Source: Alitta virens
Lineage: Eukaryota; Annelida; Polychaeta; Phyllodocida; Nereididae
Length of the DNA: 64,000 nt
Assembly: GCA_932294295.1 (NCBI GenBank)
Contig: OW028579.1
Location: 2,857,285 to 2,921,284 of the forward strand
Direction of reading: 5' to 3'
Under the pieces are notes generated by a model. The model searched no databases. It was not told the DNA's origin and worked only from the letters and a program-made list of their open reading frames with translations. This document shows, in pieces, positions 3,548 through 64,000 of the stretch. Each line of letters opens with the position of its first letter. Position 1 is the first letter of the stretch. The position numbers were made by a program, and so were the translations under genes.

Positions 3548-6184
3548 TTACCTCTTTTTGTGAATGACCACAATGAAAATTATGACTACCACAGCTATAA
3601 CAGCAATCCCTCCTAGTACTCCTCCAACAATATATGGTACGTTTCCTGAAATTAACATTGATATATAAATCATTAGGTAGTGACAATAAGTGATGTTTGG
3701 CATAACTGTGGTACATGGCCAAATGTGCCACGTGCGTTTTCCATGAGAAGGATAAACGCATGGGAAACGCATGGTTTTTAGCTAATTATAATGTAGCAAA
3801 AACCATGCGTTTTCCAGCTGCATTAAAAGATGAGAAATTAATCTGAGAAAGGAAGACAAGAGATTAGTTTCTGGTCAATTACCTAAACCTGAAACAAGAT
3901 TCAACTCCACTTGCCTTACAACGGTAAGCATTAACTTTTTTTGGATATTAGTTTCATATAAAAACTTTCTATTTTGTTTCTGTTTAAGCCTTCAAAGAGT
4001 CAAATCATACATTACACATATTGGAAAAACAATGGAGTTCCAACTCACCTTTACTTGAATTTGCATTTTGCCGGCCTGGTGGTAATGTACGTGACACGCC
4101 ATCATCCATTATTTGGCAAGTTATGTTAAAAGGCAATCGGGATCTACTACCCCATCCATCAGATGTTTCTATTCCTGAAGAAAAATAATACAAATTAAAT
4201 ACATTAGTCTATCTGAGCAGGTTAAAGAAATCAAATCAATTTGTCAAATAATTTCAGGTCAAATAGGCATGAACCCAGGATTAAGAAGCTCTCAATTTGT
4301 TTCCGGCTGAGTCCAGACAGCCAAATTATTTTTATGGCTTCCAAGATTTATTCTAGTCATTCTCTCAGATATAGATCCTAAATGAAGATATTTACATGTA
4401 ATTCTATCAAAAAGAAACTCTTTTGTGATTTATTTTAATAACTTTATATTTTTATTATCAGTTGTACAACATTCCAACCTTCTGGTTGTCTTCTTGAACA
4501 AAATCCTGTACTACTATAAAAATTACCAGGTATCAAATGTAAATTTTACTTCATTTAATATAAATGATAAATTATAATTAACCATTGAAAGTGAATAGAA
4601 ATAAACATTAACTGGTCTGCACCAACTAACTCACAGAATATTTGTACCGGTATTTATAATATTCAATATGGCTTACACATAGGAAATCTTATAAGAAAAA
4701 AAATAAAAAATGAAGCAGATTGACGTAATAAATCCTTACCGATCATAACCATATGGAGCCTAGTGGTTAAAGGTTTCTCTGTCATTTTCCTTATCATGAA
4801 GGGACCAGGTTCAAAAATGACAGTCTTAACCATCCCACCTTTTTCCGCACATTTGATATCATTATAAAATTCTATGCAGTAAGAGTCAGTTGTATCGTCA
4901 CTAGCATTTGTTGTAAAATCGTATATCTCTAAGCGTACCCTTGGCATTCCAGTGTTACTTTTTATGTTGCAATATACATCACTAGTAATGACATCGCTAG
5001 ATGGGTATCCCATTGTCTGAATGATAACTTCCTGTCCAGATGCTGTCAAATCATTGTAAAGGTTCATAAATGCCATATCAGGTAGATCAGCTTCTGCAAA
5101 AGGTATGGAAAAGGTAAATTAAATGCAAATCGTGAGATTTAATGTGCATGCAGTTGAATTGACTGTGTTTGATTTGAATACAACTTACTTGTGCACTGAT
5201 ATTCAATAAAGATGTATCTTGCATGCAGTCGACCAATTCCTCTCATGTTATCAAGGCCACATCTGCCGAACGTATTACAAGTATATCTAACTACATCAGT
5301 CATATTCCTCTGGTCATATTGCCTGTATTCTGGGATGACTGTCGGATGGTTACAAAATTCTGAATTGCGTTCAGCAATTTTGCCTAAATATGCTTGTGTG
5401 ACCAAAATTAGGCCAGACTCACAGGCCAACGATGCACCTTGCGGAAGGGGAAAGCAGAATATGGCAGTGTCAGAAGAGACCAAACTTGCTTCTGAAATTA
5501 AAATCAAACAATAAGATTAAAAAAATAATAAAGATACAACAATGCATTTTCAGTAATCTTTGCATGATTTTGAGCATAACCTGAACTCACTGTACACAAA
5601 GCATAATTGATTTTTTGTCTGATTTAATTAATTGTATCCCATAGAAAAGTATGTAATAAATATGTATACATGTTGACATCTATTTACTATATAATAGGTA
5701 ACAGGTACCTTGTTCTTCATTTCGTAAAGGCCTGACTAGCATTATGGATATAGCCATTAATTCATTTGTGATAATCAATAATATACACATTACAAGTGCA
5801 GATATTGACATTTGATATCCATAGGAGAATCTATTTTGCAATATATTTAAATAAAATGATCTTGATTATTTTTTAAATTAAAAAAGTGTAAATTATTCAA
5901 CCTGATTAAAACATAAATGTACAAGTTAGAAAATAAATATTTCTAATGTTTTAGTCACAAAATTACTAATTAAATCAACATGGTTTTATAATGTTATACA
6001 CAACTATATCCTAATACCAACTATGTAAGCAAAAGTACCACCATAATCAATAATCACGAAAGCATACAAATATATTCGTAAACAAAGTATACTTCTAGTA
6101 GTATGACTCATTTAGTATACAGTACAATAATCACTCACCTGTTAATAGCAGTAGTAATGAAAGTAGCTGTACTTTGTAATCCAT
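3548..6184 (-). CDS. SUEL-lectin-like single-pass membrane receptor, copy A (short-tailed)
   Basis: Predicted cell-surface lectin-like receptor, 308 aa. Exons (minus): 6139-6184, 5189-5491, 4740-5093, 4049-4174, 3548-3645; all introns GT-AG and phase 1. Exon 1 gives a signal peptide (MDYKVQLLSLLLLLT). Exon 2 (residues 17-116) resembles a SUEL/Gal_Lectin domain: the Cys pattern with CESGLILVTQAYLG, YTCNTFGRC and YIFIEYQC is right, but the family's DPC motif is missing. Exons 3-4 (about 118-276) form a second extracellular domain with CUB-like spacing, unproven. Exon 5 is a Gly/Val/Ile-rich transmembrane helix followed by HKKR and a stop (TAA, 3548-3550). A GT two bases after AAAAAGAG could instead splice to a tail exon, but I found none. 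A second candidate leader exon, 5709-5811 (also ATG start, hydrophobic, phase 1), would fit equally. The ligand is unknown. Confidence 0.65.
3712..3822. mobile_element. Palindromic MITE (GCATGG family), partial
   Basis: Left arm GTACATGGCCAAATGTGCCA followed by the ACGTGCGTTTTCCATG word, then AAACGCATGG, an AT-rich centre near 3780-3790 and the start of the mirror arm (AAAACCATGCGTTTTCC, ending about 3817). The outer part of the right arm is missing. It lies in the copy A transmembrane-side intron. Confidence 0.75.
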
Positions 6185-12774: not shown

Positions 12775-15664
12775 TCAAATATTCTTGACGTTCATTGCAT
12801 TGCCTCTGTGACGTTTTTTAGTATTTACATATTCATGACGTTCATTGCATTGCCTCGTTGTCATCTGACATTCCACTGTTGGTAATCTTTCCTGATAACC
12901 GTCATTGCCATAAGACAAGCCCTGGTAGTTATGATCCTGCTCATTTTGATAATCATGTTTCTGCTCATCAGGTTGTTGAAGATTATTGTAGCTGTTGTTG
13001 TCATTTTCACATTCATTCTGTTCAGAGGACTTAGCATTTTTCCTGAAATGGTCAAAAGAATATTACTAATATCTTACATTATACATAAACTTTCACATGA
13101 AAGAGAAGACAACGTAGCATATACAGTGCTTTGCAGAGTTATTGGCACTCGGTGGGGTGGGTGGGTGATTAGAACTTTACGTCCTGTATTTCTGCACCTG
13201 ATGGGCTAATTAGGAGCATGATGAAGGATGAAACAGCCATCCAACTTGGGCTCGACCGAGAATCGAACCCGGGACCCAGTGGTTGGAAGCCCAGAGCGCT
13301 ACCTTTAAGCTATGCTCCCGCCGTTATTGTGTTCTAGTGATATCCGCTGTTTGTATCTGTTGATCATGGCCATTGAAATTATGATTTGTCTAGTACACAT
13401 TGAAATAAGTGACAACTGCAGATGAGCACCTTTTCCTATGTAAAATGACCAACAAGATGGTCACCAATGCCATAATTATCAGTCCTACTGATGCCACAGC
13501 TGCCCCAATCACAATTGATGAACCTGGAACATAGAGAAAACACTGATATTTCTCTTTAACCATGACATATAAATAATTAAATTGTCTAAAGAATTGCAGC
13601 CACTATTCTTTCATTTGTTCTCCCCATTTATCAGTTTAATTGAATTTTGTTTTCTCCTGACATTTTCAATTTCTATACTTAGGCATATTTATGTCACCAT
13701 TATTTATAGATGGACTGATAACTGTGAATAACAAACACTGTACTTCCATGAATTTAGGATAATTGACCTTTACCAAGCAGTTACATTTTAAAAAACTATT
13801 TACTTGTAAAAACAACACAGGAAAACTCACCTTTACTTGAATTTGCATTTTGCCGGCCTGGTGGTAATGTACTTGACATGCCATCTACCATTATTTGGCA
13901 AGTTATGTTAAAAGGCAATCGGGATCTACTACCCCATCCATCAGATGTTTCTATTCCTGAAGAATAATAATACAAATGAAATACATTAGTCTGAGCCGGT
14001 TAAAGGAATCAAATGAATTTGTCAAATAATTTCAGCTCAAATAGGCATGAACCAAGGATTAAGAAGCTCTCAATTTGTTTCCGGCTGAGTCCAGACAGCC
14101 AAATTATTTTAATGGCTTCCAAGATTTATTCTAGTCATTCTCTCAGATATAGATCCTAAATGAAGATATTTACATGTAATTCTATCAAAAAGAAACTCTT
14201 TTGTGATTTATTTTAATAACTTTATATTTTTATTATCAATTGTACAACATTCCAACCTTCTGGTTGTCTTCTTGAACAAAATCCTGTACTACTATAAAAA
14301 TTACCAGGTATCAAATGTAAATTTTACTTCATTTAATATAAATGATAAATTATAATTAACCATTGAAAGTGAATAGAAATAAACATTAACAGGTCTGCAC
14401 CAACTAACTCACAGAATATTTGTACCGGTATTGATAATATTCAATATGGCTTACACATAGGAAATCTTATAAGAAAAAAAATAAAAAATGAAGCAGATTG
14501 ACGTAATAAATCCTTACCGATCATAACCATATGGAGCCTAGTGGTTAAAGGTTTCTCTGTCATTTTCCTTATCATGAAGGGACCAGGTTCAAAAATGACA
14601 GTCTTAACCATCCCACCTTTTTCCGCACATTTGATATCATTATAAAATTCTATGCAGTAAGAGTCAGTTGTATCGTCACTGGCATTTGTTGTAAACTCGT
14701 ATATCTCTAAGCGTACCCTTGGCATTCCAGTGTTACTTTTTATGTTGCAATATACATCACTAGTAATGACATCGCTAGATGGGTATCCCAATGTCTGAAT
14801 GATAACTACCTGTCCAGATGCTGTCAAATCATTGTAAAGGTGCATAAATGCCATATCAGGTAGATCAGCTTCTGCAAAAGGTATGGAAAAGGTAAATTAA
14901 ATGCAAATCGTGAGATTTAATGTGCATGCAGTTGAATTGACTGAGTTTGATTTGAATACAACTTACTTGTGCACTGATATTCAATAAAGATGTATCTTGC
15001 ATGCAGTCCACCAATTCCTCTAATGTTATCAAGGCCACATCTGCCAAACGTATTACAAGTATATCTAACTACATCAGTCATATTCCTCTGGTCATATTGC
15101 CTGTATTCTGGGATGACTGTCGGATGGTTACAAAATTCTGAATTGCGATCAGCAATGTTGCCTAAATATGCTTGTGTGACCAAAATTAGGCCAGACTCAC
15201 AGACCAACGATGCACCTTGCGGAAGGGGAAAGCAGAATATGGCAGTGTCAGAAGAGACAAAATATGCCCCTAAAAATGTAAAGAGATAATGAAAGTTCCT
15301 CACATAAAAGTCAATAAAATGCCTCATGTCAACATGTTGTTACAGAAGATTTCATACATAGACTAGGAAACTGAACTCCAGGGGATGTCATGTGAATCCA
15401 GGACTCCTATTGATTGAGGGACTGCCTTGGCCAAAAGAACCTTGGATTCACATGACGTCCTCTGGAGTTTAGTTTCCAAATCTTCAAAAATGAAGGTTCT
15501 GTTGCTCAACCTGAATTTAGCTGATAAATTGCCATCAAAGAGATATATAGCAGTTGCAAGCCCAATAAAAACAGGAAATTCCAGAATAAGAAACTCTAGG
15601 ATTACCAACCTAGACCACAGAACAACAGAAGTAGTAGCGATCCACCAAATGACAGTATAGCCAT
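12775..15664 (-). CDS. SUEL-lectin-like membrane receptor, copy B (frameshifted tail)
   Basis: Exons (minus): 15610-15664, 14967-15269, 14518-14871, 13831-13956, 13430-13523, 12775-13042; phases 1,1,1,1,2; predicted 399 aa. Exon 1 is a clean signal peptide (MAILSFGGSLLLLLFCGL). Exon 2 carries the SUEL-like domain (Cys motifs CESGLILVTQAYLG, YTCNTFGRC, YIFIEYQC), exons 3-4 the second extracellular domain with Cys pairs. Exon 5 encodes a transmembrane helix ending HRKR and exon 6 the cytoplasmic tail. The donor after exon 5 is GTGCTC, a weak site, but phase and frame continue into exon 6 behind a good acceptor. Compared with copy C one base is missing at 12813-12818 (six T where C has TTCCTTT), which shifts frame and stops the tail at 12775-12777 after 88 residues instead of 115. 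The YLKL and YVDM motifs are lost; the upstream HEYVNT motif is kept. Confidence 0.7.
13145..13322 (-). mobile_element. tRNA-derived SINE, family 1
   Basis: Lies in the last intron of receptor copy B. Short duplication GTTATTG on both sides (13138-13144, 13323-13329). The matching copy in unit C (20070-20174) has an internal deletion. Confidence 0.85.
15366..15477. mobile_element. Palindromic MITE (CTCCAGA family)
   Basis: About 112-bp inverted repeat: arms GGAAACTGAACTCCAGGGGA and TCTGGAGTTTAGTTTCC, with GTCATGTGAATCCAGGACT mirrored by GGATTCACATGACGTCC. Central CCAA-type words. Located in intron 1 of receptor copy B. Sister copies: 16375-16475, 16545-16652, 22216-22328, 23235-23337, 23405-23519, 54356-54655. 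Confidence 0.85.
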
Positions 15665-19614: not shown

Positions 19615-22512
19615 TCATTGCATGTCTACATAATCATGGTGACCTTGCATGTCTACATAATCATGGTGACCTTCCATGCTCACTGTGTTCAGTTTCAAAT
19701 ATTCTTGACGTTCATTGCATTGCCTCTGTGACGTTCCTTTAGTATTTACATATTCATGACGTTCATTGCATTGCCTCGTTGTCATCTGACATTCCGCTGT
19801 TGGTAATCTTTCCTGATAACCGTCATTGCCATAAGACAAGCCCTGGTAGTTATGATCCTGCTCATTTTGATAATCATGTTTCTGCTCATCAGGTTGTTGA
19901 AGATTATTGTAGCTGTTGTTGTCATTTTCACATTCATTCTGTTCAGAGGACTTAGCATTTTTCCTGAAATGGTCAAAAGAATATTACTAATATCTTACAT
20001 TATACATAAACTTTCACATGAAAGAGAAGACAACGTAGCATATACAGTGCTTTGCAGAGTTATTGGCACTCGATGGGGTGGGTGGGTGATTAGAACTTAG
20101 GCTCGACCGAGAATCGAACCCGGGACCCAGTGGTTGGAAGCCCAGAGCGCTACCTTTAAGCTATGCTCCCGCCGTTATTGTGTTCTAGTGATATCCGCTG
20201 TTTGTATCTGTTGATCATGGCCATTGAAATTATGATTTGTCTAGTACACATTGAAATAAGTGACAACTGCAGATGAGCACCTTTTCCTATGTAAAATGAC
20301 CAACAAGATGGTCACCAATGCCATAATTATCAGTCCTACTGATGCCACGACTGCCCCAATCACAATTGATGAACCTGGAACATAGAGAAAACACTGATAT
20401 TTCTCTTTAACCACGACATATAAATAATTAAATTGTCTAAAGAATTGCAGCCACTATTCTTTCATTTGTTCTCCCCATTTATCAGTTTAATTGAATTTTG
20501 TTTTCTCCTGACATTTTCAATTTCTAGACTTAGGCATATTTATGTCACCATTATTTATAGATGGACTGATAACTGTGAATAACAAACACTGTACTTCCAT
20601 GAATTTAGGATAATTGACCTTTACCAAGCAGTTACATTTTAAAAAACTATTTACTTGTAAAAACAACACAGGAAAACTCACCTTTACTTGAATTTGCATT
20701 TTGCCGGCCTGGTGGTAATGTACGTGACATGCCATCTACCATTATTTGGCAAGTTATGTTAAAAGGCAATCGGGATCTACTACCCCATCCATCAGGTGTT
20801 TCTATTCCTGAAGAATAATAATACAAATTAAATACATTAGTCTGAGCCGGTTAAAGGAATCAAATGAATTTGTCAAATAATTTCAGCTCAAATAGGCATG
20901 AACCAAGGATTAAGAAGCTCTCAATTTGTTTCCGGCTGAGTCCAGACAGCCAAATTATTTTTATTGCTTCCAAGATTTATTCTAGCCATTTTCTCAGATA
21001 TAGATCCTAAATGAAGATATTTACATGTAATTCTATCAAAAAGAAACTCTTTTGGGATTTATTTTAATAACTTTATATTTTTATTATCAGTTGTACAACA
21101 TTCCAACCTTCTGGTTGTCTTCTTGAACAAAATCCTGTACTACTATAAAAATTACCAGGTATCAAATGTAAATTTTACTTCATTTAATATAAATGATAAA
21201 TTATAATTAACCATTGAAAGTGAATAGAAATAAACATTAACTGGTCTGCACCAACTAACTCACAGAATATTTGTACCGGTATTGATAATATTCAATATGG
21301 CTTACACATAGGAAATCTTATAAGAAAAAAAATAAAAAATGAAGCAGATTGACGTAATAAATCCTTACCGATCATAACCATATAGAGCCTAGTGGTTAAA
21401 GGTTTCTCTGTCATTTTCCTTATCACGAAGGGACCAGGTTCAAAAATGACAGTCTTAACCATCCCACCTTTTTCCGCACATTTGATATCATTATAAAATT
21501 CAATGCAGTAAGAGTCAGTTGTATCGTCACTGGCATTTGTTGTAAACTCGTATATCTCTAAGCGTACACTTTGAATTCCATTGTTACTTTTTATGTTGCA
21601 ATATACATCACTAGCAATGACATCGCTAGATGGGTATCCCATTGTCTGAATGATAACTTCCTGTCCAGATGCTGTTAAATCATTGTAAAGGTTCATATAT
21701 GCCATAACAGGTAGATCAGCTTCTGCAAAAGGTATGGAAAAGGTAAATTAAATGCAAATCATGAGATTTAATGTGCATGCAGTTGAATTGACTGTGTTTG
21801 ATTTGAATACAACTTACTTGTGCACTGATATTCAATAAAGATGTATCTTGCATGCAGTCCACCAATTCCTCTCATGTTATCAAGGCCACATCTGCCGAAC
21901 GTATTACAAGTATATCTAAATACATCAGTCATATTCCTCTGGTCATATTGCCTGTATTCTGGGATGACTGACGGATGGTTACAAAATTCTGATTTGCGAT
22001 CAGCAATGCTGCCTAAATATGCTTGTGTGACCAAAATTAGGCCAGACTCACAGGCCAACGATGCACCTTGCGGAAGGGGAAAGCAGAATATGGCAGTGTC
22101 AGAAGAGACCAAATATGCCCCTAAAAATGTAAAGAGATAATGAAAGTTCCTCACATAAAAGTCAATAAAATGCCTCATGTCAACATGTTGTTACAGCAGA
22201 TTTCATACATAGACTAGGAAACTGAACTCCAGAGGATGTCATGTGAATCCAGGACTCCTATTGATTGAGGGACTGCCTTGGCCAAAAGAACCTTGGATTC
22301 ACATGACGTCCTCTGGAGTTCAGTTTCCAAATCTTCAAAAATGAAGGTTCTGTTGCTCAACCTGAATTTAGCTGATAAATTGCCATCAAAGACATATATA
22401 GCAGTTACAAGCCCAATAAAAACAGGAAATTCCAGAATAAGAAACTCTAGGATTACCAACCTAGACCACATAACAGAAGTAATAGCGATCCACCAAATGA
22501 CAGTATAGCCAT
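19615..22512 (-). CDS. SUEL-lectin-like membrane receptor, copy C (full tyrosine-rich tail)
   Basis: Exons (minus): 22461-22512, 21818-22120, 21369-21722, 20682-20807, 20281-20374, 19615-19963; 425 aa. Signal peptide 1-17, one codon shorter than copy B by an in-frame 3-bp loss, which argues for selection on the leader. SUEL-like domain about 19-118 with paired Cys but no DPC motif; second domain about 120-278; transmembrane helix about 284-306; tail 307-425. The tail is rich in Asn, Gln and Tyr and has tyrosine motifs at about Y381 (YVNT, a Grb2-type YxN), Y398 (YLKL), Y412 and Y421 (YVDM, YxxM type, PI3K-p85-like). The last two lie in a tandem 9-residue repeat, and a longer repeat RQCNER(H/Q)EY precedes them. 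Signalling roles are inferred from motif shape only. The GTGCTC donor after exon 5 is weak, as in B. Confidence 0.72.
20070..20174 (-). mobile_element. tRNA-derived SINE, family 1 (internally deleted)
   Basis: Same insertion as 13145-13322 in unit B, but about 75 bp of body between two ACTT words is missing, leaving (GGGTGG)n tail plus head. A deletion after duplication. Confidence 0.85.
22216..22328. mobile_element. Palindromic MITE (CTCCAGA family)
   Basis: Unit C counterpart of 15366-15477, with arms GGAAACTGAACTCCAGAGGA and TCTGGAGTTCAGTTTCC, in intron 1 of receptor copy C. Confidence 0.85.
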
Positions 22513-27680: not shown

Positions 27681-35424
<7,744 letters not shown>

Positions 35425-49187: not shown

Positions 49188-49790
49188 TCATAGAATGACC
49201 TTTTCGTCATTGAAGGTCAAAATTACTCATCAATTTGAAAGAGTAAATTGTCTACATCCTACATCTACATAATCAAAAATATTAAATAAAATAAATAAAT
49301 AAAATAATATAATTGTTGCATCAACAATAAAGGAGAATATGTTACCATATCAAATTTCATATATTGTGATTTAGGTGTGTGTTTTTTGGGAGGGCATGGT
49401 ACCTACTGATTATAAGCAATACCTGATCATAGATAATTTCATCATCATTTAGTTCGTATGTTTTCAAAAAAGCCTAACAACTAATGCTAATATCTAACGA
49501 TCATCATTATCATAAACATTTAACTGTTTTATCAGTCAATTTGCCATATATTGCTGACTATTGACCTACTTATTGTTTATCTGCTTGGTATTGAATACAT
49601 TTATACACTCTGAGCAGACAGTGAATCGACAAATAATTATCTTTCTGATACAATATGGGCTTTGACCAATTGAAGATATGATATAAATTGTATAAGGTTA
49701 TATATGAACTGTTATCTAAATGAGACAAGAAAATGCATAATAGTCAATGAAAATTAATAAATGAAAATTAGTTTGCATGGCAATTGCATG

Positions 49791-49982
49791 GGTGGGTGGG
49801 TGGGATTAGGGCTTTACATCCTGTATTTCTGCACCAGTTGGGCTAATTAGGACAGGCAGAGACCATGGCAATGAGACGAAGGATGAAACAGCCATCCAAC
49901 TTAGGCTCGACCGGGAATCGAACCCGGGACCCAGCGGTTGGAAGCCCAGAGCGCTACCTCTGAGCTAGGCCCCCGCCCTCAA
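49791..49982 (-). mobile_element. tRNA-derived SINE, family 1 (full length)
   Basis: Perfect duplication GGCAATTGCATG at 49779-49790 and 49983-49994. It lies about 200 bp upstream of the pseudo-subtilase start codon. Confidence 0.95.
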
Positions 49983-50179: not shown

Positions 50180-53100
50180 ATGGGCAATGTACTGTCCCTC
50201 GTGGAAGATACCGTGGGGTTAACCAATATCGATGATGAAGGAAGTTCAGTTGACCCTGACCCCACAGAAACACCAGGCACACTCCGAAGACGACTGCGGA
50301 CCACCTCAATCAGAGAGCACATTCCCATCCGGTCACCTCTTCAAGCATTGCAGGTTATTTTTACTGCTAAAAAGTAACCATCAATAAATAAATCATAATA
50401 TCAATGGTCATTACATTCAGTTGATGACAATGATGAACAACTATTCAGATAAGACATGTAGATAATTGAAAAGGATTTTGTATCTTCAAAATTCCAATTG
50501 AAAATATTGGAACAATTCAATGATTTTCAATTCTTGATGTGAAGCCAACAAGCTTGCTCTTTCTTTCCTAAAATTGGTGGGGGTGGATTAAGGGTGTGTT
50601 TGTGCACCTGATGGGCTAATAAGAACAGGCAGGGACGTTTTTCTCAAAGTAATTAAAGAATATGGGGTATATATGAACATCATATCCCATGCTGTCTATA
50701 GTTGAATTGTAGCTAATGTAGAGTTGGTTAACATAAAGGGTATCTTTACATTTGTACAATTGCCATTCATGGGTTGGGATCTAGCTCAGTGGTAGCACGC
50801 TGGACTTGCAATTCCCGGTCGAGCCTATGTTGGATGGCTGTTTCATCCTTCGTCTCATTGCCATGGTCCCTACCTGTCCTAATTAGCCCATCAGGTGTAG
50901 AAATACAGGACGTAAAGCCCTAATCCACTACCACCACCACCACCACCACCACAATTGCCATTCAATAGATTGATGTGGCATGGGATGCTCTAAGACAAGC
51001 GGCTGAGGACAACCTACGAGAACAGGGTAGTACTGCAGAGTTTACGCATGACAATTTTGACATTGAGAATGACCTTGGATTGGAACGACCCATCAAAATT
51101 GCCATCTTGGACACTGGAGTAGACCTTGACCATGCAGCTCTCATTGGACGAGTAGTACGACTTCGAAATTTTGTCCCGCGCTGGTTCCAAGAAGATGCTA
51201 CGGATGACTTACAGCGGGATCGTGCTGGTCGAGGGACCTTCCTTGCGGCACTCGCAGTTGGTGGGACTTATTCAGCAACGTCTGACGACCACCGTGCAAA
51301 AGATCCAGCTTTTCGCAATGGAATAGCCCCATTTGCAAAACTTGTTATTGGCAAAGTGCTGAATGACCATGGAAAGGGAGATGTGGAATGGCTTGTGAAA
51401 GGTAAGCGTCATTAATTTTTAAGAGACAGAATCATAATGATTTTTTTTATTGTTTTATTAATATATTTCCACTGGGTTACATAATCTACTGGGAGTTTTT
51501 CACATGGTCCAGTATAAAAACATGTAAAACAGGTAAAAAGACAATGCATGTTAAGCAAATTTTCAAAACATGCAAATTGATTTCCACATGCTTTAATGAA
51601 TGGACACTATGTGTGTTAAATTGATAACAAGGTTTATGTGGAAAATCCTTGCAGTATGATATTGGCCAAATGTTACCATGTATTTAACAGATAGGTTGAT
51701 CATTATAACCTAACATACTCCTAGAACCCATACAGCTCCAGAGCATAACAGGCTTTTATGGCTTATCTTATGCCCTTTAGCATATATAGCTAGGGACACA
51801 GTCAATTTTTCAGGCTGCAGCTCAATTTACCTTGGGGTATGGTTGCCCAAGTTCTTTCCGTGTTCTTGTGGTTACGTACCATGACAGTCCCAACAGGCTT
51901 TTATGAATTATCTTATGCCCTTTAGCATATATATATATATAGCTAGGGACACAGTCAATTTGTCAGGCTGCAGCTCAATTTACCTTGGGGTATGGTTGCC
52001 GAACAGTTCTTTCCGTGTTCTTGTGGTTTCGTACCACGACAGTCCCAACAGGCTTTTATGGCTTATCTTATGCCCTTTAGCATATATATATATATATATA
52101 GCTAGGGACACCGTCAATTTGTCAGGCTGCAGCTCAATTTACCTTGGGGTATGGTTGCCGAACAGTTCTTTCAGTGTTCTTGTGGTTTCGTACCACGACA
52201 GTCCCAACAGGCTTTTATGGCTTATCTTATGCCCTTTAGCATATATAGCTAGGGACACAGTCAATTTGTCAGGCTGCAGCTCAATTTACCTTGGGGTATG
52301 GTTGCCCAAGTTCTTTCCGTGTTCTTGTGGTTACGTACCACCACAGACCCAATTTCGTGCCACGAAAGTTACCCATATTCCTCCCAGAAATGTACCAACT
52401 TTCGCCCTATGAAACAACAACTAAATGTTGCCCTAAGAAAGTACCCAACTTTCGTCCCAAGAAACTGCTAACTTGCCCCCCCCCCCTCACTGGCGGTTTT
52501 AGCTAATTAAGTTCATCAATATTGAACGTACAGTGATGATTTGCAAATTCAGGAATGGCTCTATCATAAATACATCTACCCTGCATAGGACAATGCAGTA
52601 GATGCAAGTATTAATGGAGTGAAGGACAAAATACGATTGGCGAGAGGGCAGGCTGGCCGGGTGCCTAAGTCCCCTCTCATGCGGTCTGGGAGCCTGTGTT
52701 CAGGTGCTCTTATCTTTGAATGTATTTTTTAGAAATGTTATTTTTTACTCTGTTATGTGTTTTAATATCTTATTTCTGCAACTTTTAACTTGTTTACAAT
52801 CTTAGATTGATAAAAACGTAAAATGCAACTAATCTTGTAAGCTTAAAAATTGCATTTGCATTGTTTTCAACTCAGGCCTGAATTCAAACGAAAAACTGTA
52901 TATTATTACTACAACTAAGGCAGAACGACATCAATGTTTTAATTACATATCTTCGCATTAGGCTTCTAACTCAGCTGTGGTCAGTAGTTCTGCAGTTCTC
53001 TCACGCTTTATTAGTCATCTGGCCAGTTTCGATGGAATTTTCCTATTTTTTTAAAAATCATATTGGAAGCCACTCTTACAAAGTTGCATACCTGCAGTTA

Positions 53101-56100
53101 TTTTTTTTAATTAACCTTCACTTTTGTGGTGCGAAACCTACACTGTCAGGGGGCTGTATTACTTTCGTGGTACGACAGCATACTGTCACTGTCGTGGTGC
53201 GAAGGTGCTCATGTATCGTGTGAAGGTGTCGGGGGAGGGGGGACCTTCGCACCAGAAAATGTACTCCTTGGCCACCATATAGATCATAAATGTATCAAAA
53301 GTTTACATAACTGAGGTCCTCATCTCTCATTGAAATAGCATTATGTAGAGGTATGTAATCTTTTTGAAACTTTTAAGACCCCTATGTAAATGGGAATGCA
53401 GCCAAGCAAATTGGCTGTTCCTAGCATCAAACATACTACATAATGTATAAATATGCCCTTGAAGCCTGTTTTAAATGATACGCCAGTTCAAAGGGAAAAA
53501 GTGCAGTATAGCGGACCCAGATTTATGACCATATTTACCGAGCCTCTTTGCCAGGCCTAGGACGTAAAAGTGCTTGAAATCAATTATGACGTCACAAACT
53601 AACATAGTTATGACGGCAGTTTTCATATTCACGGTAAAGGCAGAGTTTATTTTTGCTTCTCTAGGGGACTACCGCCCCCAAACCCCCCACTATTCTATAC
53701 AAAATGTTATTTTAATTGTGCTAGAACTTCAAACAAAAAAAATATTTGATAAAAATTTAATTTTTAATGGACGCCAAATATGGGCATATATTTTGGTCCG
53801 CTACACTGCACTAAACCCGTTCAAAGTTGATCGATGGTTTTGACAGGATTGAAATGGGCTTGCGACATCGAGAAGACAGACAGTCGTAGATTAATAAATG
53901 CAGACATCATTTGCATCACATCCGGAGTGTCTCGTTACTCGCCGGATCTCAGGCTTGTGATAAATGAAGCTTTAGCAAAAGGAAAGATCATAATTTGTGC
54001 TTCCAATTCTGATGAACCTGGAACAACATATGAAATACATTATCCAGCACGTTTTGGTGATGTCATGTGTGTAGGCAGCCAATCAGAAAATGGAACGCCT
54101 TCAGCATTCACACCTCCAGGTTCGTTAACCTCATTGTTTTCTTAGTTTCTATTAATTTCTTCTGTAAACTTCATCAGGTTTCACTGTAGTTTTATTCTGC
54201 TTAATCTTCCTTAATTTGTAAGGAAGATGTTTTCCAGGTCATTTGATCTCCAAGTTAGGCAAACAATTCATAACTTAATTTTATTACAATTAGGCACTAT
54301 GAATTGGCCAGATAAAATTGTTCTTATTGCAGCGCACAGGCAAATTCATAGAGTTGGAAACCAATTTCATAGACTTAGAAACTAAACTCTAGATGATGTG
54401 TGTGTGTGTGTGATTATGGCTTTACGTCCTGTATTTCTGCACCAGTTGGGCTAATTAGGACAGGCAGAGACCATGGCAATGAGACGAAGGATGAAACAGA
54501 CATCCAACTTAGGCTTGACCGGGAAAACTCCAGATGATGTCATGTGAATGTCGGACTATCATTGGCTGAGGGATTGCTTTAACCAATGACAGTCCTGGAT
54601 TCACATGACGTCCTCTGGAGTTAAGCATTAAAGTCCAAGAGATCGGTTTCCAACTTATGAATTTGGCTGTAATACAACTCATCCAATCATTCAATGGTGA
54701 TGGGAAACTAGGCAGTCATGAGGCTGTTGTCAAACCATTTTGATATAAAATTTCAAAACAATTTCAAGGTAGAGAAGCAGAGTTCCTTGCTCCTGGAGAG
54801 GACATCTGGTCAGCATCCTCGCAGGGACCTCACCGAGTGACCAGGCGGTCAGGAGCATTTGTGGCCGTGCCTTACTGTGCGGGTATTTGTGCTCTTGTTA
54901 TGGCCTATGCAGAAAAAGTAGGTAGGTAAGAGCTTCATCTGGCTATGTTGGAGCAAAGGCAAACATTTAAGTCTTCACTTCTCTGCAGTGCATTTTTGTC
55001 CATGAATGGCTAATGACCAAGCTACATGTATTGTCAGAACTGAACTCTCTTCTTAGCTTAGCTATGTTATTGATAGCATAATTATTAAGTAAGGCCTCTT
55101 CAATTTGAAAATAAGTGTGGTGTAAATCCTACTCTACAACAATATGGTAATTAATATGACACACCCCATAATAGCTGAAATTTCATGAAATAAACATCTA
55201 GGGTGGCAAAAACTAGTAACACCTCAGGACGTTGCCATGCAAAGCTTAAGATTACAAAAGCTGCGGATCAAATTGGCCACCATACAGTATATAATGATGC
55301 AATGTTTTGTTCCTTTCAGTTAGCATTACTTATTAGTATATTATATAAATTAGACTAAAAATGTTGATCAGGAACATCCTAAAGTGGTGGAATTTTTTAT
55401 CCATACCGTGTATTGCATAAACTTCATAAGTATTCCTTCAATTGTGTTTAGGAGGTCAAGAACTACGACGAATCACCACCCACACTCACGTAATGAAGAA
55501 AATCTTGAAGCGAATGTCATCCACCACAGCAGGAACACATCATGACTGCCTTTCTGGATTTGGAAATATTCTGCCAGGAAGAGTTCTCAAGTATGGTTCA
55601 GACTTCTTTATCAACATTGTCAAAGACGTATTTGGGGTCAGAGAAAGAGGTTAGTACAAAAAAATTTATGAGAAGGTTAATAGAGCAATCGTTGAATGGG
55701 GATTGTTCATACAGTCCTAGCTGTACCTTAATGGTCTAGCCAAAGACAGCATCAGCATATCAAAGTTAACCATTAATTTATCAGCTGGTCATTAGAGTCA
55801 CATGCTTGAGTAACTGCATTTTCTACGCATCTGGTGATATCATGTAAATTGCTAAACTTTTCTATAACTGTGCAATATGCATGTATTATACCATATTAAT
55901 ATACTGTACTTCAATATAAGTTCGTTCTTTTGTAGGATTCATGAGCAGTGACCATCAAGTACCAGTTTCAAAAGATCCAATGAAGCCAACAATAAAAGAA
56001 TTCAATGCTGCTCACATTGCCTCAAGGATTCCTTCAGACAAAAACCTTTCAAAAACACTGCTAAGGTCCATGCTACCAGACAAAGCCTTGTTTCACTGGT

Positions 56101-59100
56101 ACAAGGGATTAGAAATCTTACTGACCCATGCTGCATGCGAAGATCCAAACATACCACCGCCTGCACTTCTGAAACCTTTGCCTTTGAAACTAGACCTGGT
56201 TGATCTCTCTATGCCTCCCATCAGTTCTAACTTGACCATGACAATCAGTGGAATAAATGTTGAAAGGTGCATCGAAACTTACTTCCATAACTATCACGGC
56301 CATGTCAGAAAAGTCATCCTGCCGGAATACCGACACGTTGTCCAGTTTGACCAAATGAGTCAGTTGCACAATCTCAAGCCAGATGTTGTTCACATACCTG
56401 GGACAGTGCCAATCCATTACTTGTTCAGGGTGATCAACACTTTATCACGTCATGAGAAGCACACTGGTATCATTGCTGATGTTCTCGATGTAGATTCATT
56501 TGCGGCGTTGTATCCACCTGAGACAGCTTTCATCCAGCAAGTGTTGGAAAGAACAGATCATATAAATATGAAAGTATACTTCAAGGAGATAACTGGTGAT
56601 TGTCCAGAAGAGTTTGAAAACATTATGGAAGCCATGGCTATCAGAGGAACCGAATTATTAAAGAAGTGTTTGGAATCAAAGTTTTATATCTCCGACGTAC
56701 ACAGAAAAGACCACCGACAAATCATCTTTTACTTGCAATCTGAAAGCTCAGAGTTAACCGCGGATGAGGATACATTGCCAGAATCATCAAGACAAGAGGA
56801 AAAGACCTGCTTTTACCTCAAACATGAGTTGACAAAGATTTTCTTCAGCAACAACAGAAGTAAAGTCTTCAAAGAATACCCCAAGAAACAACAACTTTTG
56901 AGGAGTAACATGATGAGAAGTTACGAGGGTGCTTTGAATTTGCTTAGAAGATGCAATTTGGCTGACATGGTCACTTGTCTTGACCTTCGCTTTGATGAAC
57001 TTACTCTGGAAATTCCTGACGTTCAGTTGGAAGATATGGATGTTGATGATGATACCATGATCCAGATTCCGGAAGAAATGCGCGGAACATCTTACTTGAG
57101 TATTTCAGACAGCAGGAGTGCATCACTAGCTTCAGTTTTTAAAGACATTGCAACCAACATAAAGGTTACAGTGGCTATTGAAGAAATCATCATCCCTCCT
57201 GTGAGTCATATACAAGATCTAGCAGATGCGATGTCATCACCTTTACTGAAGCAATGCAAGAATGTTTACATTCCTGGTGAAACTGCTTTTGTTGACCTAC
57301 TCCTCATCTTACGTACTCTCCCAAGAGAAGAATACCCAATTACTCTACATGTCCAACATCTCAGGCTTACCATGTTGATAGGAACTTTATCATCAAGGGA
57401 TTTTGAATGTCCTCCAGGTGTCAAGATAATTGTGTACTATTATAAGGTTGACTACACTTTCTTGCAAATCCCAGTTGAGAAAGTTGCTGGAATATACGAA
57501 ATTCTGCTAAGGTAATACTTTTTATGCTCGAATGACTTTCAAGGAACTAGGTACGTCTGCAAATATGATGAAGTTTTTCTTCACCAAATTTGTAGTTGTA
57601 CCCAGTTCACAAACTATTACTTGGTGTGTAATTTCACATTAACAATGCATAGCCAAAGTGAGGATTTCCACAAACAGTACTAATTAAAGTTGTCTTTTCA
57701 AACACTGTTCTGTCTTTGACTTTGCCTGCTGCAAAATCTGCAGGAAGTAATACAGTAATACAGTAATACAGTAATACAGTAATACACTGTATGCAATAAT
57801 GTGACCTCAATAGAAGATGTTCATAAAACAAGGATCCATTGTCTACTGCAAGTTTACTTACTATATCTTCCTCTCAAAATCCTGTTCAGATTCTCTTCAC
57901 GTCATTTGCTTGAGCTCATCCAAGACAACTGCAAAGGCTTCATGGCTAACCCTGATGACAGACTCCTGCCATTCAACTGCTGTGGATCTTACATGGCATG
58001 CCATACTCTCATGGTCTACTTCCAAGAAGCTCTCAGTGAGGACATGATTCAGGATGAACAGAGCATTCTGAAGTTCTCTTCAGAAGTCTTCAAGTTTAGG
58101 TATCATGCATCTAAATTTGTTTGATGACTTACATGTAAAAATATTGCAAAACAACAATCACGCCAGAAACCAAACAGCAGTGTTTCTCTGCATTTATCCT
58201 ACAACCTAGATATTATAATACAAATTTATTTATATGACAAAAGATTACATCAAGTATTGGATCTAATGCCAAAGAGAAAAGGAAAGATAATGAAAAATAT
58301 ATCTTGGGCATAAAACATCTTTAATAGCAAGTAACTTACGTTGTTAGTTTATCTGATGTTAACAATACTAAAAAATGTTTTTCTTTTTTTTTTGGTGACA
58401 AATCAGATACATCACTGCAGCAACAGGACCACAAAAGTTCCGGTTAGCTTTTAAACCTTCTCAAAACAGCGAAGAGAGGCAAACGCTTACACCAAATTTC
58501 TATCGACCAGTGTTAATGGAAAACAGGACTCTGCTGACAAAATGGAGACAAGGGAAATTGAGAGATGTCGTTGTTGCAATCTTTGGACTTGGGATCAATG
58601 CATATCATCCAGAATTCTTCAGTAAGCCACCAAGGTGTGTAAAGCGCATCACTTTGTAGCAAAAATTATGGGTTTAGTGCAGTATAGCGGACCCAAATTT
58701 ATGCCTATATTTGGCATCCATTAAATACGAAAATAATCACTATTTTTGACCAAATTTCGTGCTATTACACAATAAGAATAACATTTTTTATAGAGAAGCA
58801 GGGGTTTGGGGGCAGCAGCTCCCGAGAAAAACAAAATGTAAACAATAATAAGCTGCGTTCTTGCCTTGAAGCCGCCGTTTGTTTGTGACGTCACATATTG
58901 AATTCAAGCATTTGACGTCATTGGCCTGCAATGAGACTCGCTAAATATGTTCGTAAATTTGGGTCCGCTATACTGCACTTTTTCCAAAATTATTATCCTT
59001 ATCACGTTGATAGCACTGTTCGAAAGGAAGAGTGAAATTTAAACTACACTCACTATATAATCGTTTTAGCACATTGAAACAATTGTCTAAGTACTGCAAT

Positions 59101-62100
59101 TTACTTTTAAAGACACATTGTAACAGATATAGCAGACCCACTGTTTCATTTTTTTTGACAAAATGTTGCAGAAGTCCACCAATAGACCCTCTTCATGAGC
59201 AATGAGCATAGTTTAGCATACCCAGGCAAGAAAAAGTATTAAAGAGATCGTGATTTGTTGTCATTTTAGCCGAGATAACATTGGAAACTTCGGGGATAAA
59301 ATAGCAGGACTTGCTTACAATGCTGTTCCTGAGGATTGCCACCAGGCATTCATTGATGATGACTGCACAATTGGCACAGTTGCAGCTGCACTAGTGGCAG
59401 GAAGTACCTGTGGAGCTGCACCTTTTAGCAAAGTAGTCTCCATAAAGGTGGGGAGGTCATCTGGGCATTGTCGACCAGATTGGATGATAGCAGGTAAAGG
59501 GGCGTTCACACTGTCACAAGTGGGCATGGTGAGCCTGGATGACGACAAATTGTTAATCATACTTATCCTTTTTCATACATAATTCTCTCGCCGAGCGTTG
59601 TGCGGATACTCCTGCTAATCCGAAGAACCTTTCAGATCACTATTGGATATCCATGGAGAGGGCAAAAATTTTAAAACATGTTTAAAAAATGGCGGATATG
59701 TCTACAAGTCAAATCCTTAACCTTTTTACGGGAATCACATGGGGAGTCCAAGGCTGTCCTAGTGTCCTTCCGTGTATACTCGCCATCCCCTCTTGTACAG
59801 CTTGTGGAAGCCTCGCAAATTTATACGTGATTATCAGAGCCACGACTGAGCACGTATAGTCCCTTTTTGACGTCCATGGTCACACATCTCTCTTACTCGT
59901 GATAATCTGGACTAGGCTTAAAGGCTTTACATGCAGATATATTGCATTATACTGGGTCACAACTACTTGAATGATGAAAGTCTATGGAATTTATATTTTC
60001 TAAATCAACACAATATGATTGGTCTTACAAGACTACATGTTATTAATATTTTCCAAAAAATCATAAAGCATAGCAATAGTTTTATGGCTATGTTACTTTT
60101 CACAATTATGTTGCAATATATATTTCATCACAGTCTTGGTTAATGTTACCATTAAAACCATACCATACAGTGTAATTAAGACTTAAATTTTGACTAGATG
60201 CTATTACAAACACCCTTCTATTGCATAAATATTGTCATATTGATTGGCCTTAGTATTTTTAACTGCATGAACGCCCTAATAAATCAACTGGATTTCCAGA
60301 TTCAGTTTCTGTGGTTTTTTGTAGGCTTGAAGTACCTTATTGAACAAGAGAAGAATGGTCTTCTACCACAAAGTGACGTTGTTTTCATTCCCGTCACATT
60401 TGGATCATTTGATTTTGATATGTACAACATGGTGAACCAGTTGACCACATCAGGAAAGATCATTGTCTGTGCTTCTGGAAGATCATCTGTTCTGGATTCT
60501 GAGCTCATTTCCTATCCTGGATGTTATGGAGATGTCCTATGCATCGGTAAGCCATTAAGTTCAGAAATACAAGATTCCTTTTTTTGCAAGCTCTTACATT
60601 AGATAATCATCAGTACCAAACCTTGATGTTCACACTGAATGATTATTTAGGAGAATGTTAGTGGTTGATGATGTAATGAGCATTAAATTAGACCATAATA
60701 CCATGTCTATCTTTTTTTCCCCAAGATTCTTGTAAAAAGACAATGTTTCTGACTTCTGAGATTTCATTTCTGGGGCACGAGAAACGTAACATACAGTACT
60801 ATTCTGGTTAATCTTCTGCTTATTTTTTCCAAAAGTAGTTCATGCTTCCAGACAGAACCTACCCTAAAATATCATATAGCAAAATTACAAAGCAAACCAT
60901 CCGAAAACTAATAGCTTTAGCTTTAGGTGTTCCAGAAGTAGGTGATATTCCTCTGTTCCAGATCCTTTTTCTTCTGTATAGTTCGCGACTGAATTTTGAG
61001 TATAAATTATACAATAGTGGATTTTCACGGAAGGTTCTCTATATTTCCACCAGGTGGCTATGACAGAATAATGCAATTCTATTGGCTGAAAAAGTACCCC
61101 TCCTTGGCTGTGATTGGCTGTAGCAAAGTGCATCCTAGCAGCAGTAATTTTAGTGCATTTAAATGTATATTTGACACCTTATCATACAGTTGATATTTGT
61201 TATTTTTCTGAGAATGTTGTATTTATTGAATAAGTCAGTGATTATCTTCTATGTCTGAAAAGCAAAATGAGTAATAGGAGGAGAGGAAGGACTTATGTCT
61301 TGCTGAACTCAGGGCTGCTCAGTGAAGACTCTATTATGTGCAATATATACATAAGGTAATGCAAGATACTTATTCTAGGCAGCCACCAGAACAACGGAGA
61401 ACCCTCACCCTTCACAGGAAAAGGTCGAGAAACTGACCTCTTGGCTTTAGGAGAAGTTCCCTGTGGTGGTGATCTCAATGACCAATGGGGCACAGCCATT
61501 GCAGCAGCTCATGTCACAGGGGTAGTGGCTTATATTCTGGGTTACGCCGAGACAGTAGGTAAGGTTTCACGAAAAATGCTGGAAATAAATACTCTAGAAG
61601 TTTCTGTTTACTGACAGCACACACACAAAGAAAAGGTCATAATCAATACAGCACACAAACTTGTAAGCTACTGGTCAAAGAAGGTTTTTGTCACAATAAT
61701 CCAATTAGTTGCCAGCAGCACCATTCATAAGACAATGATAGACAGTGGTTTCAGGCTAATATTGCCTATCAACTGATCAACTTCATTGGAATAAACTGAG
61801 CTAAGGAATCAAATGTCAGCACCAGAATCCTTATATAGTTTTACTTAAAAGGCAAATTAATTCAATTTAACTGTTGTAACATTTTATACTCCGAAGAATA
61901 CAGGTTTGGGACCTGGTAACCTAAGAGCATATCAGGCTGATCCAGTGGGGCATATAAATGACATGTACTTGCTTTTCTATAACACAGGTGGACCTAGCTT
62001 ACGTCAGGTCATTTCCAATAACAGTGTCATGAGGGAAATTCTTCGCAGGATGTGCAGCAAACCAGGCCAACATGACGAAAAGAGTGGATACGGAATTCTG

Positions 62101-63011
62101 AACCCAGGCCAGGTCAATTGAAACAATATCTCAAATTATGTAACAGAGTATCCAAAATTCATATTGTTCATATGAAGCAACATCTAATTATGGATATATG
62201 ATTTTGCTCTCCATACTTGTATGCTTTCACATATATTGTACCTATCATAACTTGCTGTCAATATATTGTACCTATCATAACTTGCTGTCAATATATTGTA
62301 CCTATCATAACTTGCTGTCAATATATTGTACCTATCATAACTTGCTGTCAATATATTGTACCTATCATAACTTGCTGTCAATATATTGTACCTATCATAA
62401 CTTGCTGTCAATATATTGTACCTATCATAACTTGCTGTCAATATATTGTACCTATCATAACTTTTTCTTGCTAGTCAGGCTGACCAATGGTGACAGGGAC
62501 CTTTAAGATGGGATGCAGTGCCTGCCAACACTAAGCTTACTCTTGGTCAGTGCTTCTGCATGAGCCCTCTTGTGCTCGAGTGGACACTGGTCAGGGCCTT
62601 GACCTGCAATGTGGTCTCGGCTCTGAGGGAGTAGTGCCGTATTATGAACTTTCAATGTACATGCATTTCTTCCTTCAGATCTTGCGACATGGAGACGACT
62701 TCTTCAGACAGATGGTTAGTGAGCTGACGGAAGAGTACAGTGCCATCATAGCTCGTCGTCAAAGTGTCATATCACAGCAACAAGTCAATATGGTCCATGG
62801 AAATGAAGATACCTCAAGGAGGAGGAGGATTTCTGTCACAAGGCCCCCTACGAATGAGAAACTCCACGAAGCTCTTCTTACGAGACGTATGGTGTCTGTT
62901 GAGGTCACTCCACAAGATCCGCCGAGCCGATCTGGACGTAACCAAGAGCGAAGACACAGAAGAAGACACTTTAGTGAATGCAGTGCAAGCAGTGGTGTCT
63001 CTGACACCTAA
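50180..63011 (+). CDS. Double pseudo-subtilase (two inactive S8-fold domains) with central repeat region
   Basis: Predicted 1442 aa from 13 exons: 50180-50353, 50969-51401, 53847-54119, 54769-54921, 55452-55649, 55936-57511, 57890-58099, 58407-58634, 59270-59493, 60325-60546, 61379-61558, 61988-62112, 62679-63011; all GT-AG, frame continuous to TAA. N-terminus MGNVLS fits N-myristoylation. Subtilase-like domain 1 (about 60-410): Asp motif IAILDTGVD kept (D106) and oxyanion Asn (CASN, N256) kept, but the His motif reads GRGTFLA (His to Arg146) and the Ser motif SGAFVAVPYCAG (Ser to Phe324). Domain 2 (about 1050-1345): VVVAIFGLGIN (Asp to Gly1066), CTIGTVAAALVAG (His to Ile1116), CASGR (Asn to Gly1208), GTAIAAAHVTG (Ser to Ala1270). 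Both are predicted proteolytically dead. The 600-residue middle is unfamiliar and internally repeated. The C-terminus is basic (RRRRISV, RRHRRRHF). No signal peptide or membrane segment, so probably cytosolic. Function unknown. Confidence 0.85.
50580..50640 (-). mobile_element. tRNA-derived SINE family 1 fragment
   Basis: Short remnant of the body (GTGCACCTGATGGGCTAATA, ACAGGCAGGGAC) without head, in intron 1 of the pseudo-subtilase gene. Confidence 0.6.
50770..50950 (+). mobile_element. tRNA-derived SINE, family 1, beside the exon 2 acceptor
   Basis: The only clear plus-strand copy: A box GATCTAGCTCAGTGGTAGCA, deletion across the B box, then body, GACGTAAAGCCCTAATCCAC and a (CCA)n tail. Perfect 14-bp duplication ACAATTGCCATTCA at 50756-50769 and 50951-50964. 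The right duplication ends 4 bp before the AG acceptor (50967-50968) of pseudo-subtilase exon 2. Confidence 0.95.
51749..52350. repeat. Four-unit approx. 150-bp tandem repeat, pseudo-subtilase intron 2
   Basis: Units start (CAGGCTTTTATG) at 51749, 51894, 52049 and 52208. Length differences (145, 155, 159) come from a short (AT)n inside each unit after TTTAGCATAT. Units are highly similar. A 169-codon plus frame across three units (51903-52412) is repeat-driven. Confidence 0.93.
53501..53811. mobile_element. MITE, GTGCAGTATAGCGGACCC family, copy 1
   Basis: 311 bp with inverted ends GTGCAGTATAGCGGACCCA and GGTCCGCTACACTGCAC. Located immediately before exon 3 of the pseudo-subtilase gene. The partner at 58677-58978 is in the opposite orientation. 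Confidence 0.88.
54356..54655. mobile_element. Palindromic MITE (CTCCAGA family) split by a SINE
   Basis: The left arm (AGAAACTAAACTCTAGATGATG in part) is separated by a SINE from the rest (ACTCCAGATGATGTCATGTG ... ACATGACGTCCTCTGGAGTT). Same family as the copies around the lectin receptors 30-40 kb away. Confidence 0.8.
54399..54525 (-). mobile_element. tRNA-derived SINE, family 1 (5'-truncated)
   Basis: Target-site duplication AACTC(T/C)AGATGATG at 54385-54398 and 54526-54539, inside a MITE arm. The tail is (TG)n on this strand. The head is cut at CTTGACCGGGAA. Confidence 0.93.
58677..58978. mobile_element. MITE, GTGCAGTATAGCGGACCC family, copy 2
   Basis: 302 bp with near-perfect ends GTGCAGTATAGCGGACCCAA and TTGGGTCCGCTATACTGCAC; contains two TGACGTCA-like words. 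It sits in the intron after exon 8 of the pseudo-subtilase gene, inverted relative to copy 1. Confidence 0.9.
62231..62462. repeat. 30-bp VNTR, about eight units, last pseudo-subtilase intron
   Basis: Nearly identical head-to-tail units (ATATATTGTACCTATCATAA + CTTGCTGTCA). The period is a multiple of three, so two plus frames and one minus frame stay open; these are artefacts. Near-zero divergence implies recent, likely polymorphic, expansion. Confidence 0.97.
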
Positions 63012-63172
63012 CCATATGAACAGAATGGCACTAGACTTTACTATGAGTCAAAACATTTTACTAAGAATCAAAACATTTTACTAAGAATTAGAGTCCAAAC
63101 ATTTTATTAAGAATACAGAAAAGTTCTATCATGTACCTAAAACTATCAACAGTAAACAATCCAATAAAATAT

Positions 63173-63384: not shown

Positions 63385-64000
63385 TCACGACATAGGTATC
63401 CATTGTTGGGGAAAGTATTCCTCCGCTTTGTAGGATATTCGTTTGTAGAAGTTGGAATTATTTCGAATCCAATCTTTGTAATACACAGTTTGGCCTTTAT
63501 TTAGGAAACCACACCACCAACTGTAAGTTCCAAACGATGTGATGGAATGATTGCAGTTAGCCACAAGTGCCATATCCTCTAATGCACTCATTTTTGCTAC
63601 CGTTTTAGAAATGTATACATTTGTTCGATTTAGGTTAAGAGCAGCCCATGTCGTGTCAGTGGTTGTGACAACAAAAATACATTTTTGGTATCTATTTTCA
63701 TAGTAATCCATTGCACGGGCAAAATAGGATGCATTTGGGGTTCTATAGCCATAATTTTGAAAGTTTTGGTGAGTGATATCACCTCTTCGAATTTGTATTC
63801 CAACAAAGGTCACCTCTTCCCCAGTTGAATTTGATTTGTGAAGAATAGCCCTTAGTACCATTTGAGCTTTTTCAACAATTTCATCCCTAAAGTGAATTTT
63901 ATCTCTTACTTCTTCCCAACATCCTTGGAAATATGCAAATTTTTGCATAAAATGACGGTATATGATGCTGTCATTCAGTAATACTTTAAATGCTTCAACA
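63385..64000 (-). CDS. Alpha-1,2-fucosyltransferase-like (GT11), C-terminal part
   Basis: The open frame runs from the window edge (no start reached; the ATG at 63948 is internal, because the frame stays open upstream to 64000) to TGA at 63385-63387; about 204 residues seen, 3' end of a type II Golgi enzyme. GT11 enzymes move fucose from GDP-fucose to the 2-OH of galactose. The donor-binding motif VGIQIRRGDI is present, followed by ASYFARAMDYYENRYQKCIF and FVVTTTDTTWAA, then the second family block SALEDMALVANCNHSITSFG with TYSWWCGFLNKGQTVYY. These match animal FUT1/FUT2-type proteins, though which paralogue cannot be said. Intact, in a single exon as far as seen. Neighbour gene is convergent with a 370-bp gap. 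Confidence 0.88.
   Translation of the reverse strand, partial: VEAFKVLLNDSIIYRHFMQKFAYFQGCWEEVRDKIHFRDEIVEKAQMVLRAILHKSNSTGEEVTFVGIQIRRGDITHQNFQNYGYRTPNASYFARAMDYYENRYQKCIFVVTTTDTTWAALNLNRTNVYISKTVAKMSALEDMALVANCNHSITSFGTYSWWCGFLNKGQTVYYKDWIRNNSNFYKRISYKAEEYFPQQWIPMS

Follow-up and report, generated by a model that had tools for sequence, protein, structure and literature searches.

Subtilase pseudoproteases are, as a wider kind, not new: they occur in Clostridioides difficile, and there is a probable one in malaria parasites. According to one account (PMC6636752), CspC of C. difficile has D105, T170 and G485, so that of the triad only Asp remains, and CspA is produced fused to CspB, as CspBA, in which CspB is active. 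PIMMS2 of Plasmodium is presented in its report (PMC5520436) as a potential subtilase pseudoenzyme whose losses vary among orthologues. Here we describe a predicted gene in a 64,000-nucleotide stretch of the polychaete Alitta virens (assembly GCA_932294295.1, contig OW028579.1, positions 2,857,285 to 2,921,284 of the forward strand; hereafter the window, within which all positions are counted). The gene, on the plus strand at 50180-63011, would encode a protein of 1442 residues that carries a subtilase domain without catalytic His and Ser and, towards its C terminus, a second that has, on sequence comparison, diverged from a copy of the same unit and lost all four catalytic landmarks. That the two domains form one architecture is likely but unproven.

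The Pfam profile PF00082 matched residues 100-368 (domain 1; 83.9 bits, E = 1.6e-23) and residues 1060-1312 (domain 2; residues 124-376 of the last piece searched; 61.6 bits, E = 1e-16) against a curated cut-off of 21.8, which bears out the preliminary description of both regions as subtilases. Bacterial intracellular subtilisins are proteases with an intact triad. One of them (PDB 7y6m) was the best-scoring of the solved subtilisins matched by each domain, and the modelled three-dimensional fold was that of subtilisin. The landmark positions, all inside exons, are D106, R146, N256 and F324 in domain 1 and G1066, I1116, G1208 and A1270 in domain 2; the Asp-His-Ser triad of an active S8 peptidase thus lacks His and Ser in the first domain and every member in the second, with each replacement where it had originally been placed. 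The preliminary description also had Asp and the oxyanion Asn of domain 1 as kept. The Asp is, and the oxyanion residue is uncertain, as a gap-free alignment sets N256 opposite a Ser of its relatives and S257 opposite their Asn, one column away. Alternative splicing that restored the missing motifs had been considered a threat to this picture, and a search of the forward strand at 49-64 kb, in all three frames, turned up neither HGTH nor GTSMA. Three incomplete matches (GHGTY and then a stop at 49392, upstream of the gene; SGTS and then a stop at 55368, in intron 4; and GTSAN at 57550, in intron 6) lacked subtilase context by eye.

Like domain 1, CspC and CspA have a subtilase fold that keeps Asp with His and Ser replaced, but the Csp proteins are bacterial and have a prodomain and a jelly-roll domain (PMC6636752), whereas the window gene has neither a full-triad domain nor such an insertion: domain 1 (266 residues) showed no long insertion against 244 residues of 7y6m. 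P. berghei PIMMS2 is described with a single domain in which the triad-aligned residues are kept and the HGT and GTS motifs are absent, together with a predicted signal peptide and transmembrane segment (PMC5520436). In a survey of fungal NOD-like receptors, Peptidase S8 (PF00082) is among the domains annotated in these cytosolic receptors (PMC4986451); the window protein, searched against Pfam in three pieces spanning its entire length, gave no NACHT or NB-ARC match at E up to 1, nor any other nucleotide-binding domain. The iRhoms are animal pseudoproteases with regulatory roles (PMC6451368, PMC3149277), but are kin of the rhomboid intramembrane proteases and have another fold. PF00082 was the only Pfam family matched at E up to 1, and no P domain was found. 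In the proprotein convertases (PCSK), that domain stands behind the catalytic domain. The earlier statement that no named family has this architecture agrees with the titles and abstracts listed in our search of the open-access literature, among which we found no animal pseudo-subtilase; reports printed elsewhere are possible.

Several features mark the two domains as copies of one unit: 34% identity (94/280 positions), a common C-terminal extension that carries a G-x-DFF motif, and two introns at the same position and in the same phase (K-G-LKW/A-G-LKY and V-G-GQ/V-G-GP). A third intron is unmatched, and domain 2 has more introns than domain 1. The two common positions suggest that the unit was duplicated together with its introns, or that both copies kept an older pattern.

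We aligned both domains as a query and scored 8000 candidates, which gave at least 36 proteins at E up to 1e-5. In four of these (P0003-P0006), identity to domain 1 is 57-62% across 79% of the query and 51-55% over a longer alignment; in a shorter piece, P0019, it is 61% across 27%. The apparent ends of P0003 and P0004 lie inside introns, so we took them for genomic frames of other eukaryotes. None of the four relatives that cover the Ser site has Ser there (Trp, Trp, Phe and Gly); the His site is Tyr in two of five and kept in the other three (P0005, P0006 and P0019), and Asp is kept in all five. By contrast, D, H, N and S are all present in the 24 other aligned matches, the alignment having omitted 7 of the 36. 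Loss of Ser, a statement that concerns domain 1 only, is therefore common to its relatives and not the mark of one broken copy; as subtilase domains without a full triad, P0003-P0006 are pseudoproteases alongside both window domains, and a pseudoprotease domain common to several relatives is well supported by these alignments. In a midpoint-rooted tree of 19 of the 36 matches, the two window domains and two subtilase frames from the same genome, domain 1 grouped with P0003-P0006 (95/82). Addition of domain 2 and then of P0007 gave a group (100/98) separate from 14 other matches and the two same-genome frames. P0007 shares this side of the tree and the C-terminal extension with the window domains, but it has a single domain, an intact D-H-N-S set and 29% identity. 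This pattern suggests that the loss of Ser probably preceded the split of these lineages and that His was lost later, more than once. We noticed no closer relative of domain 2, either among the matches listed or in the tree, and one scan of prokaryotes with one peptide pattern returned 38 loci of at most 33% identity.

The middle region that separates the domains (525 residues) matched no Pfam family at E up to 1 and nothing in a plasmid search. The last 170 residues of exon 6 weakly resemble leucine-rich repeats, and the alignment of the two halves of the region, equalled by 21 of 1000 shuffles, gives only a hint of duplication. The predicted model of this region was poor, so that missing fold-library matches are uninformative. 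The protein begins MGNVLS, which we take to be a myristoylation-like motif. Gly2 is also present in P0006 (MGTISS) and P0019 (MGNTIN), not in P0005 (MWGNALS). The likeness of exon 1 to the N terminus of P0006 was equalled in 7 of 1000 shuffles, and its likenesses to P0019 (363/1000) and P0005 (90/1000) were not significant.

The gene is intron-rich. We rebuilt it from open frames, splice scores and assembly, with the junctions picked by frame and homology and not always by score, and arrived at the same 13 exons in fitting phases, with GT-AG borders in all 12 introns and a sole, terminal stop. At 54119/54769 and 60546/61379, rival splice pairs scored higher than the chosen ones. On a rough scale four donors are weak (50354, 54120, 58100 and 62113); the junction at 54120 is backed by P0003-P0006, which are continuous there without an intron, and the donor at 62113 by the alignment with domain 1, while for that at 58100 there is no supporting comparison.

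That both domains lie in one protein is probable, and the question turns on intron 5. The alternative, which we consider appreciably less probable yet serious, is a pair of neighbouring genes: one made of exons 1-5 and ending at the stop 55652-55654, which would encode a dead subtilase of about 411 residues, and another made of exons 6-13, with the middle region and domain 2; in a variant, a single gene would give two products through retention of intron 5. Several features count against the single protein here. Retained intron 5 reads Arg-Gly-stop, its TAG standing two bases beyond exon 5; its donor is average (3.3 on the rough scale); a shorter transcript could make use of an AATAAA at 55991; and the triad-intact P0007 is a 426-residue, single-domain frame that ends at about this place, although that could be a gene-prediction end. 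A Met codon at 55941, two codons inside exon 6, could also suit a separate second gene. Favouring one continuous protein, a strong pyrimidine-rich acceptor tract, TTCGTTCTTTTGTAG, stands just 5' of exon 6, with the donor in phase, and the 286 bases that are all that separates exons 5 and 6 contain no AATAAA or ATTAAA (55655-55935).

Conservation was taken as the mean identity between pairs of sequences, the window's and four relatives, at up to five residues from D, H, N and S. Around these sites it was 0.55, a level reached by 67% of 5000 draws of random places (0.58), with values of 0.72 for D, 0.56 for H, 0.52 for N and 0.39 for S; a control of 11 triad-intact matches from the 36 (four with a bacterial name) gave 0.68 against 0.36, which 0.06% of draws reached. 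The pattern supports, but does not prove, a function that uses other surfaces. We lean, with only modest confidence, towards a cytosolic pseudoprotease scaffold or sensor in which domain 2 is a diverged copy of the same unit as domain 1. The putative protein shows no signal peptide by eye; it may be tethered to membranes through a lipid on Gly2, its dead folds would hold partner proteins, mainly through parts of their surface that lie away from the former Ser and His, and its middle region, perhaps leucine-rich-repeat-like, may bind a ligand or partner, for an overall role as scaffold or sensor. The binding or scaffold role first put forward agrees with the finding that conservation is not raised around the former active site taken as a whole. 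Other observations sit uneasily with this reading. The Asp region remains well conserved and P0005, P0006 and P0019 keep His, which indicates that the old site has not been fully released; the comparison has only five sequences, and its window and control sets differ in divergence; the middle region had no relative among 5488 candidates, and the full-length query had two weak matches among 7997 scored; and domain 2 joins the domain 1 group, apart from P0007, weakly (81/49) and on a long branch (2.96). A bolder version, in which the gene would represent a new class of animal cytosolic receptor, lipid-anchored, with two dead subtilase folds around a leucine-rich-repeat-like sensor and the fold as signalling platform, a counterpart of the bacterial CspC sensor, is speculative and rather unlikely.

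Slightly less likely still is a regulatory decoy, in which the dead domains would grip, by the old groove, substrates or inhibitors of the organism's own active subtilases and so restrain them. The genome offers possible targets in at least 122 subtilase matches (pieces, not genes), conservation persists in the Asp region, and CspA, a dead subtilase, controls CspC (PMC6636752). Against this, conservation is lowest in the Ser region, and the three genome subtilases whose frames were read have signal-like N termini by eye where the window protein has none, so that the partners would not meet. The weak donors, the two junctions chosen against the top score and the length of the domain 2 branch might instead betray a decaying gene, or a gene model pieced together out of open frames that do not belong together, but we consider this very improbable: 1442 codons run without a stop, and exon 6 stays open for 525 codons where 200 base shuffles of the region reached at most 177 on the plus strand. 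The preliminary description had likewise rejected decay, and for domain 1 decay is indeed unlikely, its Ser-less relatives being 57-62% identical locally and its fold being modelled in the top hit; for domain 2 no close relatives of its own were noticed. Least probable of all, if barely less so, is that the domains are not dead and that the altered site cuts with other residues. Asp in domain 1 and all five relatives, and His in three of the five, would allow it; the change of Ser to Phe, Trp or Gly in a poorly conserved region speaks against it.

Table 1. Exons of the predicted subtilase pseudoprotease gene, and intron 5, in window positions.
Feature	Coordinates	Strand	Content and support
Exon 1	50180..50353	+	Start MGNVLS, myristoylation-like N terminus; open frame, in-phase join, weak donor
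Exon 2	50969..51401	+	Domain 1, D106 kept, His replaced (R146); tblastn 52-57% identity to P0003, P0005, P0006
Exon 3	53847..54119	+	Domain 1, oxyanion region N256/S257
Exon 4	54769..54921	+	Domain 1, Ser replaced (F324); start set by homology over top score
Exon 5	55452..55649	+	Domain 1 C-terminal extension; 55442-55636 aligned with P0007 residues 352-425 (E = 7e-6)
Intron 5	55650..55935	+	Donor GTTAGT; in-frame TAG 55652-55654 if retained; acceptor tract TTCGTTCTTTTGTAG
Exon 6	55936..57511	+	Open for 525 codons, without known family; weak leucine-rich-repeat resemblance in the last 170 residues
Exon 7	57890..58099	+	Linker without family match
Exon 8	58407..58634	+	Domain 2 start, Asp replaced (G1066)
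Exon 9	59270..59493	+	Domain 2, His replaced (I1116)
Exon 10	60325..60546	+	Domain 2, Asn replaced (G1208); matched by P0003, P0005, P0006 and weakly P0007 (E = 0.003)
Exon 11	61379..61558	+	Domain 2, Ser replaced (A1270); domain 1 alignment favours the start at 61379, 61418 higher score
Exon 12	61988..62112	+	Domain 2 C-terminal extension
Exon 13	62679..63011	+	Rest of domain 2 extension and Arg-rich tail of about 97 residues; AATAAA at 63163 downstream

Repeats lie in and near the gene. Intron 2 holds repeats at a spacing of about 155-159 bp (51747-52352), intron 12 a 30-bp tandem repeat (62171-62523) that is open in frames of both strands, and a dispersed repeat of about 115-130 bp occurs in three copies in both orientations (49788-49918, 50811-50926 and 54396-54525), two of them intronic to the gene.

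In the 671-Mb genome, the PF00082 matches lie in many cases in single long frames and arrays, and the family is expanded on contigs C9 (20.2-20.4 Mb), C8 (6.0-6.3 Mb) and, at several places, C14 (loci L001-L008). The three frames with signal-like N termini also have an intact triad by eye, and two of them were placed on another branch of the tree. Comparison of the entire protein with 24 of these loci (8 + 16 of the at least 122) revealed no close paralogue, the best being L001 at 28.6% identity, and ten flanking stretches, which take in about 49 kb to each side of the window, gave no match to domain 1, the middle region or domain 2 at E up to 1. Elsewhere in the window, a glycosyltransferase family 11 (fucosyltransferase-like) frame on the minus strand (63388-63999, E = 1.3e-29) runs past the end, and a pair of open frames recurs on the same strand in three near-alike copies (4666-5516, 14444-15339 and 21295-22190), the first with one weak CUB-like match below the cut-off and two other scanned frames with none. 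A minus-strand frame at 34124-34480 weakly matched ATP-grasp_2 (E = 1.2e-4, below the curated cut-off). Rfam and tRNA scans of the window found no match.

Should the family prove real and expressed, the subtilase folds described as working without catalysis would gain a probable animal example. With its triad-intact cousin and the intermediates that keep His and have lost Ser, the sequence of changes that led from protease to pseudoprotease could then be tested. Under the one-gene model, a large region without known family would be joined to a subtilase fold.
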